DNA of 39,842 nt from an uncultured beta proteobacterium (GTDB lineage: Bacteria > Pseudomonadota > Gammaproteobacteria > Burkholderiales > Burkholderiaceae_A): the NCBI GenBank assembly GCA_902586195.1, contig CACIGF010000007.1:1-39842 (forward strand), read 5' to 3'. The number at the start of each line of letters is the position of its first letter. The stretch's first letter is position 1. A program made the translations under genes and the position numbers. Positions 5,364 to 11,270 of the stretch are shown piece by piece. The notes beneath the pieces are model-generated. The model saw nothing but the letters and a program-made list of their open reading frames with translations. It did not search any database and was not told where the DNA came from.

Positions 5364-6788
5364 TTATCTTTTTCGCTTCTTTTTTAGACGGTTTTTTTGT
5401 TTGCGGTTTTTCTTCCTAATTTGGGTATTTGCTGATTTAAAATTTGGGGCACTACCCATGATATTTTTGCCGATACCGCCTCCCTGTCTCAGCATCGATT
5501 GCATGGTGCTAAATTGATTTAATAATTGGTTGACTTCAGGAATAGTTGTTCCCGATCCGAGGGCAATCCTTTTTTTTCTATGGGCCTTTATTATTTCTGG
5601 GGCTAGACGTTCTTTTTTTGTCATCGAAGAGATAATTGCATCTTGCTTTTTTACATTTTTTTCAAGATTTAGTGTGTCAAGGTTTTGAGCCTTATCTCTG
5701 ATGGCAGATGGTAAATAATTCAGGATTGATGCAATACCCCCCAATTTATTTACTTGAGACAACTGCTTACGGTAGTCGTTTAGGTTGAACTTCTTCCCTG
5801 ATTTGAGTTTCAACGCCAGCTTCTCAGAGTCCTCAGTCTCAATCGATTCTTGAGCCTTTTCTACCAAGCTTAGAATATCACCCATCCCTAAAATTCGATC
5901 GGCAAACCTTTTTGCATCAAACAATTCAAGTCCATCGAGCTTTTCTGAGTTGCCGACGAATCGGACGGGGCATCCTGTAACTGACTGAACTGATAGCAAG
6001 GTTCCTCCTCTGCTATCTCCGTCGACTTTAGTCAAAACTACACCGCTTAGTTTGACTGATTTGTTAAATTCTGCTGCTACTGTAAGGGCGTTCTGGCCCT
6101 GCATTGAATCAACCACGAATAATGTCTCCGATGGTTCGAGAGTGGTTTGCAGGTCCTGTAACTCGCTCATCATTGCTTCATCTAACGAAAGTCTTCCAGC
6201 GGTATCAATTAAGAGGTAGTCGTAAAGATATTTTTTTGCATAGTTGAGAGCATTTTCTCCAATTTGAACAGGCGCACTTTTTGTGTTTTTGTGTTCATAA
6301 AAATCAATATTGACTGAATCGGCTAAGATCTTTAACTGTTCCGCAGCCGCTGGTCGATACGTATCGCAAGAGGTAAGAAGAACTTTCGCTTTTCTTTTTT
6401 TTGAAATCCAAAGCCCAATTTTTCCTGTAGTTGTTGTTTTACCTACTCCTTGTAGTCCTGCCATAAGTATAGTTTGAGGCTCATTCGGATTTTGATGCTG
6501 TAAAAAAGGTTTCTCATCATCGTCTTTACTTAATAAGGTTATCAACTCTTGATTTACAATTTGAACAATAGTTTGACCAGGGGTAAGACTATGGATAACT
6601 TCCTTCCCAAGGGACCTCTCTTTGATATTTGCTATAAAGTTTTTAACAACTGGCAATGCTACGTCAGCTTCTAAAAGGGCATATCTAATCTCAGCAAATA
6701 TTTCAGCCGAATTTTCCTCTGTTATCTGGGCTTCCCCCCTAATTCCCTTGATTATGGAACTGAATTTTTTCGTAAGGTTCTCTAACAT
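5364..6788 (-). CDS. ffh: Signal recognition particle protein Ffh (SRP54)
   Basis: GTPase subunit of the signal recognition particle, which targets nascent membrane proteins to FtsY and the Sec translocon. It has an N-terminal helical bundle, then a G domain with P-loop GLQGVGKTT at residues 111-119, DTYRPAAAEQL, DTAGR and TKVDGDSRGG. The methionine-containing M domain follows (LGMGDILSLVEKAQ onward, with MTKKERL and the SGT-TI-EVNQLL RNA-binding helix). The C-terminus is strongly basic. At 474 residues it is slightly longer than E. coli Ffh. It diverges from a CcsA-like gene with a 28-base spacer. The 4.5S RNA is not in this window. Confidence 0.97.
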   Translation of the reverse strand: MLENLTKKFSSIIKGIRGEAQITEENSAEIFAEIRYALLEADVALPVVKNFIANIKERSLGKEVIHSLTPGQTIVQIVNQELITLLSKDDDEKPFLQHQNPNEPQTILMAGLQGVGKTTTTGKIGLWISKKRKAKVLLTSCDTYRPAAAEQLKILADSVNIDFYEHKNTKSAPVQIGENALNYAKKYLYDYLLIDTAGRLSLDEAMMSELQDLQTTLEPSETLFVVDSMQGQNALTVAAEFNKSVKLSGVVLTKVDGDSRGGTLLSVQSVTGCPVRFVGNSEKLDGLELFDAKRFADRILGMGDILSLVEKAQESIETEDSEKLALKLKSGKKFNLNDYRKQLSQVNKLGGIASILNYLPSAIRDKAQNLDTLNLEKNVKKQDAIISSMTKKERLAPEIIKAHRKKRIALGSGTTIPEVNQLLNQFSTMQSMLRQGGGIGKNIMGSAPNFKSANTQIRKKNRKQKNRLKKKRKR

Positions 6789-6816
6789 ATTTCATTTCCT
6801 TGATAAACTAAGCTTT

Positions 6817-7611
6817 ATGACAATAATCGAAAACAACTTATCTATCTTGCATGCATTTGGCTACATTTTACTTGCTATCCTTTTGTGGAAAACGAGCGGG
6901 AAGGTTTTCCTATCCATAATGTTATCAGGAAGCCTAGTTGCATTGCACGGAATGGGTTTGTTGTTACCATGGTTTACTTCTATCGATTTTGAGTTTGGTC
7001 TATTAAAAGCATTTGTCTGGATTATGTGGCTTGCCGCTATCCTTGTTTGCTGCGAAGCCTTTTTTCGGAAAATTATTCCAAAAATAATGCCTCCTATTTT
7101 TATGTTGACAGGATTGTCAATAATTTTGGATTCAATGTACCCTTCCTCCAATCTGGCTAATGACCTTAGTATTACCTTTCGATTTCACATTTTGATTGCA
7201 ATGTTGTCCTATTCCTGCCTCGTTTTTACTTCTGTAAGGGCATTAACGATTCACTTTCAGGAAAACTCATTACGAAATCCAAAAATAAGAACGCCTGACT
7301 TGAGTCTCCCTTCTCTTATTGAATTAGACGCTTCATTGCACAGGCTGCTTTTAGTAACTTTCGCTTTGCTGAGCGGAACAGTTTTAAGTGGTGTTGTCGT
7401 TAATCTCGAAAATGGAAGGATACCACTAGTTTTTGATCATAAGACGTTTTTCTCTCTACTGGCATGGCTGTTAATCAGTTGCATAGTCTTCGGCAAACTT
7501 TTTTTTGGTTGGAGAGGAAGAATGGTCGCAAAAATGACAATGATTGGCAGTTTTTTAGTCATCTTGTCTTACCTAGGAACTCAATTTGTCATTGATGTTG
7601 TTTTGGCATAA
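6817..7611 (+). CDS. CcsA/YpjD-like cytochrome c assembly family membrane protein
   Basis: Predicted inner-membrane protein of 264 residues with about eight hydrophobic helices. It belongs to the CcsA/HemX-type cytochrome c assembly family (YpjD branch): the order of helices, the short soluble loop (IRTPDLSLPSLIELDASLHRLL) and the closing GWRGRMVAKMTMIGSFLVILSY segment (shown here in part) fit. The ATG at 6817 is chosen because the reading frame upstream of it runs through ffh on the other strand and has no homology. In beta- and gammaproteobacteria this gene commonly sits beside ffh. YpjD's biochemical role is unproven, so haem handling is only a family-based suggestion. It ends 9 bases before ampD and the two are probably cotranscribed. 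Confidence 0.85.
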   Translation: MTIIENNLSILHAFGYILLAILLWKTSGKVFLSIMLSGSLVALHGMGLLLPWFTSIDFEFGLLKAFVWIMWLAAILVCCEAFFRKIIPKIMPPIFMLTGLSIILDSMYPSSNLANDLSITFRFHILIAMLSYSCLVFTSVRALTIHFQENSLRNPKIRTPDLSLPSLIELDASLHRLLLVTFALLSGTVLSGVVVNLENGRIPLVFDHKTFFSLLAWLLISCIVFGKLFFGWRGRMVAKMTMIGSFLVILSYLGTQFVIDVVLA

Positions 7612-7620
7612 TGGACTGTA

Positions 7621-8223
7621 ATGAGTCTCGGGAAACATAGGAAAAGGCTTGGTTTTTCTGAGAACGGTTGGTGTGAAGGGGGCTCGAAATGTCGAATATT
7701 AAAGTCTCCCAATTTTGATTCCAGGCCACAAAATACAACAATTGATTTACTTGTTCTTCACAATATTAGCGTACCCGAGGGCATCTTTGGAGGCACGGAG
7801 ATTGAAAATTTATTTTTAAATCAATTGGATGCATCAAAAAAAATATTTAAACCGTTACTAAATTTAAAAGTGTCTTCTCATTTTCTTATAAAAAGAACCG
7901 GTAGCCTTGTTCAGTTTGTCTCTTTGCGTGATCGAGCATGGCATGCAGGGAAGTCATCATTTTTGGGGAGAGTTGGATGTAACGATTTTTCGATCGGGAT
8001 AGAAATTGAGGGTACTGACTTTGAGAAATTTAACGATGCTCAATACGATACCCTAGGAAATTTAATCATATCAATAAAAAATTTCTTGCCTGCGTTAAGT
8101 GCTGTAACGAGCCACTCTTTCATTGCGCCAGGAAGGAAAACAGATCCCGGCCCATATTTTGATTGGAATAGGGTTAGGGAAGCTATTGAAACTGCTGAGA
8201 AAAATATTTTTTTATTCCCTTAA
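7621..8223 (+). CDS. ampD: 1,6-anhydro-N-acetylmuramyl-L-alanine amidase AmpD
   Basis: Zinc amidase that cleaves the stem peptide from 1,6-anhydro-MurNAc during peptidoglycan recycling in the cytoplasm. Zinc ligands are visible as H47 in LLVLHNIS, H165 in TSHSFIAPGRKTDPG and D175 in the same motif; K173 and the GIEIEGTD segment (acidic catalytic residue) are also present. RDRAWHAGKSSF matches the substrate loop. The 200-residue length suits the betaproteobacterial form. It has no signal peptide, as expected for AmpD rather than for secreted AmiD. Mpl and AnmK elsewhere in the window act in the same recycling route. Confidence 0.95.
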   Translation: MSLGKHRKRLGFSENGWCEGGSKCRILKSPNFDSRPQNTTIDLLVLHNISVPEGIFGGTEIENLFLNQLDASKKIFKPLLNLKVSSHFLIKRTGSLVQFVSLRDRAWHAGKSSFLGRVGCNDFSIGIEIEGTDFEKFNDAQYDTLGNLIISIKNFLPALSAVTSHSFIAPGRKTDPGPYFDWNRVREAIETAEKNIFLFP

Positions 8224-8235
8224 TGTAAATAAAGA

Positions 8236-8264
8236 TTGCAACGAATTTTTTCCGGGATTACAAT
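8236..8264 (+). promoter_or_regulatory. Candidate sigma-70 promoter for nrdAB
   Basis: TTGCAA (8236-8241) and TACAAT (8259-8264) are separated by 17 bases, giving four of six and five of six matches to the -35 and -10 consensus. The predicted start of transcription, near 8271, falls inside the first of two NrdR-like palindromes, which is the classical layout for repression. The prediction is from sequence alone. Confidence 0.6.
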
Positions 8265-8266
8265 TT

Positions 8267-8282
8267 CTACTAGTTATAGTAT
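8267..8282 (+). promoter_or_regulatory. NrdR box 1 (proximal to the -10)
   Basis: The sequence contains TACTA-N4-TAGTA (8268-8281), which resembles the NrdR consensus CACTA-TATA-TAGTG. It sits just downstream of the candidate -10 and begins exactly 30 bases before a second copy of the same arms. NrdR is the ATP/dATP-sensing repressor of ribonucleotide reductase genes. The nrdR gene itself is not in the window. Confidence 0.65.
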
Positions 8283-8296
8283 ATTAATAAAAAAAA

Positions 8297-8312
8297 ATAC
8301 TAAATTTAGTAT
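8297..8312 (+). promoter_or_regulatory. NrdR box 2 (perfect palindrome)
   Basis: TACTAAATTTAGTA (8298-8311) is a perfect palindrome with the same TACTA-N4-TAGTA arms as box 1. A run of A before it and of T after it extends the dyad to about 8292-8317. The 30-base start-to-start distance, near three helical turns, fits paired NrdR boxes. Alternatively it could be a weak AT-only terminator for ampD, but the shared arms with box 1 and the position before nrdA favour an operator. Confidence 0.7.
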
Positions 8313-8351
8313 TTTTTGGCAACATTTTCACAGTAATACAGGGAAGCAATA

Positions 8352-11270
8352 ATGCAGCGAGATTCAGCAGAACAACATAAAGATCACATTTCAAATTTAA
8401 TGAGCAACGAGATAGATGAGCTAGAAGACAGAAAAAATCAATCAATTTTAGAGGGTGATTCCCTAGGTGTGAGGGCAAATAGCTCTGATATTAAAGTGTT
8501 GAGAAGAAATGGCGCCGTTGTTCCATTTGAGGCTTCGAAAATTTCCATAGCTATGACAAAGGCATTTCTTGCGGTGCAAGGAGGAACCAGTGCTGCCAGC
8601 GCGAAAGTTAGACAAATGACCGAAGAATTTACTGCGCGGGTGGAAAAAGCTTTACTTAGAAGGCTACCATCCGGTGGAACAATTCATATAGAAGAAATTC
8701 AAGATCAAGTTGAATTGGCATTAATGAGAGCCGGAGAGCACGAAGTTGCCAGGTCATATGTTCTTTATCGAGAGGAACGAGCGAAAGAAAGACGTGAAAA
8801 ATCAGAAGGAGATTCAAAGCCTGATGAACTAATTAGAATAAACGTTGACGGTGAATTAAAGTTTCTGGACGAAAAATGGCTCAATCAGATTATTGAAGAA
8901 GCGTGCAGAGGATATACAGACCACGTAGAACCAAAAAAAATTTATAACTCTGTTTTTAAAAATTTATATGATGGCATCAAGGTCGACGATTTGATCAAGA
9001 CTTTAATAATGACTAGTAAAACATTTATTGAAAAGGATCCACTATATGCAAAAGTTACAGCACAGTTGCTCCTGTACGCGATTCGTAAGGAAGTGCTCGG
9101 GCGTCATGTACAAGCGAGCGAAGCAAAGGAGACGTATAAAAGTTATCTCCCACGATTTATTGAGAAGGGGATACAAGTTGGCGTCTTAAGCTCAGAGTTA
9201 AAAAGCTTCGACCTTGAATTTCTTGGAGAGACAATTAATCCCGAAAGAGACTTCCAGTTTGGATATTTAGGTTTACAGACGCTTTATGATCGATATTTCC
9301 TTATAGATAGAAACGACAGCTTTAGCAAGGAAGGAAAAAGAATAGAGCTTCCGCAAATATTTTTTATGAGAGTAGCAATGGGGTTAGCAATCAGGGAAAA
9401 AAATAAGAGCAAGAGGGCGGCAGAGTTTTATAATTTACTGTCAAGTTTTGATTTTATGAGTTCTACCCCAACGCTATTTAACAGCGGGACTAATTTTTCT
9501 CAGTTATCGTCCTGCTACTTGTCTACAGTGGAGGATGATTTAGATAGGATATATGAGGCTATAAAAGAAAATGCATTGTTGGCGAAGTATGCAGGTGGTC
9601 TCGGGAATGATTGGACTCCCGTACGCGCGTTAGGAAGTTTCATTAAAGGTACGAATGGGCATAGTCAAGGAGTCGTGCCTTTTTTAAAAGTGGTAAACGA
9701 TACTGCAGTTGCTGTCAATCAGGGAGGAAAGAGAAAAGGAGCAGTTTGTACTTACCTAGAATCTTGGCATCTTGATATTGAAGAATTTTTGGAATTAAGA
9801 AAAAATACGGGTGATGACCGTCGTCGGACTCATGACATGAATACCGCAAACTGGATTCCTGATTTATTTATGAAAAGAGTTATGAACGATGAAAAGTGGA
9901 CTTTGTTTTCTCCCGACTCTGTTCCAGACCTTCACGATAAATATGGTGAGGAATTTGAGAGAGCTTACGTATCATACGAAATAAGGGCTAAGAACGGAGA
10001 TTTGAAGCCTACTAAAGAAGTTTCCGCTATCGCGCTATGGAGGAAAATGCTGTCAATGTTATATGAAACTGGTCATCCGTGGATTACGTTTAAGGACCCT
10101 TGCAACATTAGAAGCCCGCAAAAACACGCTGGTGTGGTGCACAGTTCAAATCTTTGTACTGAGATCACTCTTAATACGGGCCCATCGGAAATTGCGGTTT
10201 GTAACCTTGGTTCTGTAAATTTACTTAACCACCTAGTGAGTGATGAAAAAGGGGAGTTTTCAATTGACCAGGGACGCCTCAATCGCACAGTTAAAACAGC
10301 AATGAGAATGTTGGATAATGTTATAGATATCAATTTTTATGCTGTAAGCAAGGCAAGAAACTCAAATTTATCTCACAGGCCTGTTGGATTAGGAGTTATG
10401 GGTTTTCAGGATACACTTCATGCCTTGAAAATTCCTTATTGTTCAGATGAGGCAGTTGAGTTTGCTGACAAATCAATGGAAATGGTATCCTATTTTGCAT
10501 ATACAGCCTCAAGCGAATTAGCGGAAGAGAGAGGCTCATACGAGACTTTCAAGGGTTCATTATGGGATCAAGGTATTCTCCCGTTGGATTCGATGAGACT
10601 CCTTGAACAGGAGCGGGGAAGAAAAATAGATGTAGATAAGAGTTCTCAACTCGACTGGGAAGCACTAAAAAGAAAAATAAAGAAAAACGGCATCAGAAAT
10701 TCAAATTGTGTGGCGCTGGCCCCTACAGCAACAATTTCCAACATAGTGGGTGTCTCTGCCTCGATTGAACCAACATTTCAGAACTTATATGTAAAATCTA
10801 ATTTGTCAGGGGAATTTACAATGGTTAGCGAGATGATGGTTAGGGATCTCAAGAGAGTTGGGCTTTGGGATGAAGTAATGGTAGCTGATTTAAAATACTT
10901 TGATGGTAGTTTGGCCAAAATTGACAGAGTTCCTGCTGAGTTAAAAAAACTGTATGCAACAGCATTTGAAATTGATCCTATGTGGATTATAGATTGCGCT
11001 GCAAGAAGACAAAAATGGATCGATCAGGCCCAGTCACTAAATATTTATTTATCTGGTGTATCAGGAAAGAAAATTGATGAACTATACAAAGCAGCATGGT
11101 TAAAGGGTTTAAAAACAACATATTATCTAAGAACCATGGGTGCTACGCATGTTGAAAAATCTACAACAAACTCTCGTGAACTAAATGCTGTTAAAGACGG
11201 ATCAATTCAAAGCAGCGATTCGGAAAATGTATGTAGCATTACAGATCCTGGTTGCGAAGCTTGTCAATAA
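8352..11270 (+). CDS. nrdA: Ribonucleoside-diphosphate reductase class Ia, alpha subunit
   Basis: Large subunit of aerobic ribonucleotide reductase. After a divergent leader of about 45 residues comes an ATP-cone (VLRRNGAVVPFEASKISIAMTKAF begins it), and a second degenerate cone-like segment seems to follow before the barrel (LDEKWLNQIIEEACRGY onward). The ten-stranded barrel shows SSCYLS (redox cysteine), SNLCTEI (radical cysteine with flanking Asn and Glu), AGGLGNDW and PTATISNI. The C-terminal tail ends GCEACQ, the swinging cysteine pair recharged by thioredoxin or glutaredoxin. The 972-residue length matches the betaproteobacterial form. An AGGGAAGC ribosome-binding site lies upstream of the ATG at 8352. 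It is followed after 30 bases by nrdB. Confidence 0.97.
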   Translation: MQRDSAEQHKDHISNLMSNEIDELEDRKNQSILEGDSLGVRANSSDIKVLRRNGAVVPFEASKISIAMTKAFLAVQGGTSAASAKVRQMTEEFTARVEKALLRRLPSGGTIHIEEIQDQVELALMRAGEHEVARSYVLYREERAKERREKSEGDSKPDELIRINVDGELKFLDEKWLNQIIEEACRGYTDHVEPKKIYNSVFKNLYDGIKVDDLIKTLIMTSKTFIEKDPLYAKVTAQLLLYAIRKEVLGRHVQASEAKETYKSYLPRFIEKGIQVGVLSSELKSFDLEFLGETINPERDFQFGYLGLQTLYDRYFLIDRNDSFSKEGKRIELPQIFFMRVAMGLAIREKNKSKRAAEFYNLLSSFDFMSSTPTLFNSGTNFSQLSSCYLSTVEDDLDRIYEAIKENALLAKYAGGLGNDWTPVRALGSFIKGTNGHSQGVVPFLKVVNDTAVAVNQGGKRKGAVCTYLESWHLDIEEFLELRKNTGDDRRRTHDMNTANWIPDLFMKRVMNDEKWTLFSPDSVPDLHDKYGEEFERAYVSYEIRAKNGDLKPTKEVSAIALWRKMLSMLYETGHPWITFKDPCNIRSPQKHAGVVHSSNLCTEITLNTGPSEIAVCNLGSVNLLNHLVSDEKGEFSIDQGRLNRTVKTAMRMLDNVIDINFYAVSKARNSNLSHRPVGLGVMGFQDTLHALKIPYCSDEAVEFADKSMEMVSYFAYTASSELAEERGSYETFKGSLWDQGILPLDSMRLLEQERGRKIDVDKSSQLDWEALKRKIKKNGIRNSNCVALAPTATISNIVGVSASIEPTFQNLYVKSNLSGEFTMVSEMMVRDLKRVGLWDEVMVADLKYFDGSLAKIDRVPAELKKLYATAFEIDPMWIIDCAARRQKWIDQAQSLNIYLSGVSGKKIDELYKAAWLKGLKTTYYLRTMGATHVEKSTTNSRELNAVKDGSIQSSDSENVCSITDPGCEACQ

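Follow-up and report, generated by a model that had tools for sequence, protein, structure and literature searches.

A probable NrdR operator upstream of nrdAB in an uncultured beta proteobacterium, offset from its promoter and accompanied by a Leu26 NrdR

The window, that is, the whole stretch of 39,842 nucleotides analysed here from an uncultured beta proteobacterium, carries the genes of both subunits of a class I ribonucleotide reductase (RNR), preceded by ampD (Table 1). In the gap between ampD and nrdA, a sigma-70-like promoter sequence is followed by two boxes, then by nrdA and nrdB. Further upstream, positions 6622-7611 encode a protein similar to the cytochrome c biogenesis protein CcsB (41.7 bits, below the family cut-off of 187.6). 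A first-pass annotation had pointed to two TACTA-N4-TAGTA palindromes in this gap. Both are indeed present as exact copies (TACTAGTTATAGTA, 8268-8281, and TACTAAATTTAGTA, 8298-8311), with starts 30 bp apart, and they are the sole exact copies found by a motif search of the window. A C and a G nine bases apart are conserved in each of the two boxes. In box 1 the arms alone are palindromic, the centre being GTTA. Box 2 had been placed in a longer AT-only dyad; the dyad is perfect over 26 bp, but each half contains one C or G. The promoter proposed upstream of the boxes, TTGCAA-N17-TACAAT, was recovered with its 17-nucleotide gap; the two strands of 8180-8420 together hold five such promoter-like matches to the consensus, this one included, where shuffled sequences give a mean of 1.4. 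From this -10 hexamer, transcription is predicted to start at about 8271, so that the operator overlaps the start site as had been suggested, if this is understood as the predicted start of transcription and not as the start codon, at 8352.

Table 1. Features of the ampD-nrdA gap and its neighbouring genes (window positions)
Feature	Position	Strand	Remark
ampD, upstream neighbour	7621..8223	+	NF008758 above cut-off; ends 12 bp before the -35
-35-like hexamer TTGCAA	8236..8241	+	TTGCA equally far from box 1 in relatives G001 and G005
-10-like hexamer TACAAT	8259..8264	+	N17 after the -35; present in G001 and G005 too
NrdR box 1, 16-mer CTACTAGTTATAGTAT	8267..8282	+	contains predicted transcription start (from the -10)
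Inter-box spacer, 14 bp	8283..8296	.	between the 16-bp boxes
Perfect 26-bp dyad enclosing box 2	8292..8317	.	outer part not conserved in G001/G005
NrdR box 2, 16-mer ATACTAAATTTAGTAT	8297..8312	+	
nrdA, class I RNR large subunit, 972 aa	8352..11270	+	NF005544 and TIGR02506 above cut-off
nrdB, small subunit, 376 aa	11301..12431	+	NF005550 above cut-off

The layout was compared with NrdR operators described previously. The box centres are about three helix turns apart, as anticipated for an NrdR pair, but the spacer, 14 bp at a distance of 30 bp, is shorter than the usual 15-16 bp (PMC12051234) and stands at the short end of the 14-17 bp spacer class. In that study, each of the four NrdRs tested binds across the range 14-17 bp, with the strongest binding at 15, 16 or 17 bp, and for each the KD at 14 bp is above those at 15 and 16 bp (2 versus 1 nM for Listeria); in vivo, 15-17 bp spacers were efficiently repressed, in a passage that does not mention 14 bp (PMC12051234). 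At Escherichia coli nrdAB, NrdR binds boxes 1 and 2, which there too lie in the downstream part of the promoter region; the spacer is 15 bp versus 14 bp here, and box 2 has the same TACTA left arm, by our reading of the printed oligonucleotide (PMC12176259). The Streptomyces coelicolor nrdRJ operator (7P3F) also has a pair of boxes with about three turns between them, and a single tetramer occupies both (PMC9110341).

Short dyads could arise by chance in AT-rich DNA. In favour of such an origin, the window shows no enrichment of TACTA-N4-TAGTA when up to two mismatches are allowed (23 matches versus 17.6 expected), and the 1.13-Mb assembly has a single site for a looser pair (CTA-N4-TAG, gap 17-23), just as it has one for the reversed control pattern. 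As the loose motif is not enriched and the control matches equally, the case is made by the exact arms, their position and their conservation, and not by genome-wide rarity. Dinucleotide shuffling of 8224-8351, repeated 20,000 times, gave one exact copy or more in seven cases and two exact copies in none; the pair score of the window, 34.3 for a maximum possible of 41.6, was equalled in 0 of 5000 shuffles of the same region. Moreover, the pair is conserved in relatives (below), which already contradicts chance, and we regard this explanation as having a negligible probability.

To follow the pair upstream of nrdA, the first 249 residues of NrdA were used as query. Matches were obtained in 57 of 61 genomes, own genome included, and in none of G003, G006, G034 and G049. 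Upstream regions were taken from 55 genomes, 56 in all because G041 gave two; excluded were G043 and G044, whose matches are weak (E about 1e-8 to 1e-10), the other weak second matches and, in G054, a short second match lying in a frame of 117 aa. A second set of named genomes comprised 78 of 80 listed loci (587 relatives found), L070 and L124 being dropped for their short upstream sequence; among the matches listed, these are mostly Burkholderiales or other betaproteobacteria by title, which places the organism itself, by inference, in Burkholderiales. Some genomes may be common to both sets, and those that are related do not count as independent. Boxes were scored against a consensus, with weights of our own choice. 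When any distance from 17 to 47 bp was allowed, the top-scoring pair stood 30-32 bp apart in 53 of the 56 relatives' regions, the window's own included, compared with 2/56 shuffled and 3/42 coding controls, and in 65 of the 78 listed named regions (shuffled 12/78, coding 4/78); it stood at other distances in 3 and 13 regions, respectively. When pairs of these nrdA regions were limited to 29-33 bp, all four conserved C/G were found in 128/134 (exceptions L053, L169, L098, L101, L111 and L122), and 11 of the 128 have the 30-bp distance.

Within the taxonomic family, nrdA is present in 24 of 26 genomes. All 24 have their best pair at 30-32 bp (30 bp in 2, 31 bp in 11, 32 bp in 11) with the four C/G kept, and both boxes occur in all six same-genus genomes where nrdA was found (of eight), which is the conservation in close relatives that had been asked about. 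The arms had been viewed as a local change from CACTA/TAGTG to TACTA/TAGTA. This did not hold: 24/24 family members have TACTA as the left arm of box 1, and both arms are exact in both boxes in 6/24. A new specificity conferred by altered arms was likewise ruled out, TACTA being the family norm.

The same comparison bears on the possibility that the dyads act as RNA, forming hairpins or a terminator between ampD and nrdA. The segment 8286-8325 does fold at -8.0 kcal/mol (z -4.4), but the longer leader 8265-8351 barely beats its shuffles (z -1.5, 14/200 as good). The outer dyad is not conserved; the box arms and the 30-32 bp spacing are, even with an asymmetric box centre. No terminator-like site was found in 8180-8420. 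The weak leader fold, the lack of such a site and the unconserved outer dyad rule this function out for practical purposes, and we consider it very improbable.

The position of the operator relative to the promoter was then compared. In a search for TTG[CG] within the taxonomic family, 21/24 members have the start of the -35 at 19-20 bp upstream of box 1, so that the -10 falls inside the box; in the remaining three, the window, G001 and G005, this distance is 31 bp. Among the 54 relatives' regions with four C/G, 46 have a TTG[CA] that starts 18-20 bp upstream of box 1, four have it at 31 bp, and the last four have none at 15-36 bp; the fourth region at 31 bp is L031, from outside the taxonomic family. 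For the 74 listed named regions with four C/G, the figures are 43 at 18-20 bp, three at other distances and 28 where TTG[CA] before box 1 is absent. Bases 5-10 of box 1 mostly hold a -10-like hexamer, TAGAAT (35/54) or TACAAT (5/54) in the relatives and TATACT (24/74), TAGAAT (22/74) or TACAAT (8/74) in the listed named regions. In the window, G001 and G005, TACAAT is upstream of box 1, and inside it stands TAGTTA or TAGTTT. These three group together in a tree of 14 NrdA fragments (94/90, just below the 95/80 mark; three more rows, being too short, were omitted), in which G002 forms a long branch. The simplest reading of these sequences would be that a single slide of about 12 bp, roughly one helix turn, took the operator off the -10; as start sites are predicted, this slide rests on consensus promoter sequences. 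A literature search for NrdR together with a betaproteobacterial nrdA promoter, which did not cover older subscription papers, found none, and we do not claim the layout with the -10 inside box 1 as unreported.

An operator of this type calls for its repressor, and nrdR, which had been suggested as a check, was found in the genome (G000; 1,126,355 bases, 70.7% complete), on contig C12. It encodes 156 aa scoring 167.3 bits (TIGR00244 cut-off 124.65) and matches five distinct solved NrdR sequences, with a best E of 1.3e-43 (9fzf). The gene that follows it we take to be ribD-like. In the zinc ribbon, both CxxC motifs, D15 and R17 are all present; in the S. coelicolor protein, base specificity has been linked to the latter two (PMC9110341). 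In S. coelicolor, nrdR lies inside the regulated operon (PMC9110341), whereas in G000 it is on another contig than nrdAB and no box pair precedes it. Within 250 nt upstream of nrdR, no good pair was found in the eight resolved loci of 40, own genome included, where pairs at 30-32 bp score 19.9-24.1 (maximum 41.6) versus 34.3 for the window pair. Autoregulation of nrdR is thus not indicated in these eight loci and was set aside.

Among relatives, nrdR was matched in 57 of 61 genomes, in 56 above the TIGR00244 cut-off, and residues were read in 58 loci of 57 genomes (G007 twice, G013 as a fragment). D15 is replaced by Glu in 7/58. Residues 26-29 are RRRR in 53/58 loci, LRRR in four (G000, G001, G003 and G006) and MRRX in one, where a base is ambiguous and the genome has 7% contamination; the frequency of Leu26 thus refers to the 58 loci of these relatives. 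The G000 protein (L002:281-748, G000:C12) therefore departs from RRRR while still standing above the family cut-off. Arg26, the residue found in E. coli NrdR, is named among the residues indispensable to DNA recognition (PMC12176259); its contact is with the DNA backbone (PMC9110341). In a tree of 14 chosen NrdRs, the four LRRR proteins fall into a single clade (99/97); their Leu26 codons are CTA, CTT, CTT and CTG. In the comparison with G000, 39 of 148 codons of the G001 gene differ synonymously and 2 non-synonymously; the figures are 30 and 2 for G006, and 80 and 10 for G003. Synonymous differences being far above non-synonymous ones, nrdR is maintained under purifying selection.

Leu26 and the 30-bp spacing coincide, within the taxonomic family, in G000 and G001. 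G003 and G006 lack an nrdA match, so that this link rests on two close relatives. The 30-bp distance also occurs elsewhere (L033 and eight listed named regions), and a linkage of Leu26 to this spacing was not retained. G003 and G006, of the same genus, have nrdR and show neither an RNR large subunit (PF02867) nor a match to window 7600-8420; as both genomes are incomplete (76% and 85%), this is probably an assembly gap. As separate observations, G004 (6% contamination) has two RNR large-subunit matches (L182 and L186) and no nrdR match, and G007 (7% contamination) has two NrdR loci (L176 and L177), one of them with ambiguous bases.

The 14-bp spacer and the presence of LRRR instead of RRRR in 4/58 loci raise the possibility that the boxes, although inherited as an NrdR operator, now serve repression weakly or not at all. 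However, exact arms are kept in both boxes of G001, where the DNA over 7600-8410 has 86% identity; nrdR is under purifying selection, and Leu26 itself is kept through the three codons CTA, CTT and CTG. We therefore find such a decay unlikely. With nrdR in the genome and the box pair conserved in relatives, as the first-pass annotation had anticipated, we conclude with high confidence that the boxes are the NrdR operator of the nrdAB operon, at which NrdR would bind and repress. The operator itself is ordinary; it has two small lineage-specific features, the promoter offset and Leu26.

By extension from studied NrdRs, the operator may function as follows. The tetramer loaded with dATP and ATP binds two boxes about three turns apart, kinking the DNA at each (PMC9110341). 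At high dATP, NrdR in this form would thus bind both boxes through its paired zinc ribbons and bend the DNA sharply over the transcription start, and the bent DNA would prevent RNA polymerase from initiating or from escaping. A fall in dATP would shift NrdR to its non-binding form, and nrdAB would be expressed. Since in the subclade of the window the operator lies downstream of the -10 and not over it, repression would be exerted at the start site and over the first part of the transcribed DNA, in much the same way as for E. coli nrdAB. As to the roles of the operator slide and of Leu26, we infer a possible co-change, which we hold to be rather doubtful: with the operator about one turn off the -10, the 14-bp spacer and the loss of Arg26, repression that once covered the -10 may now trap or block the polymerase at the start site, the bendable AT-rich boxes offsetting the lost backbone contact.

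The operator indicates that NrdR control of nrdAB extends to this lineage. A natural Leu26 NrdR with a conserved operator provides a test of the necessity of Arg26 in DNA recognition, and the slid operator a test of the freedom of a tetrameric DNA-bending repressor to shift relative to its promoter.
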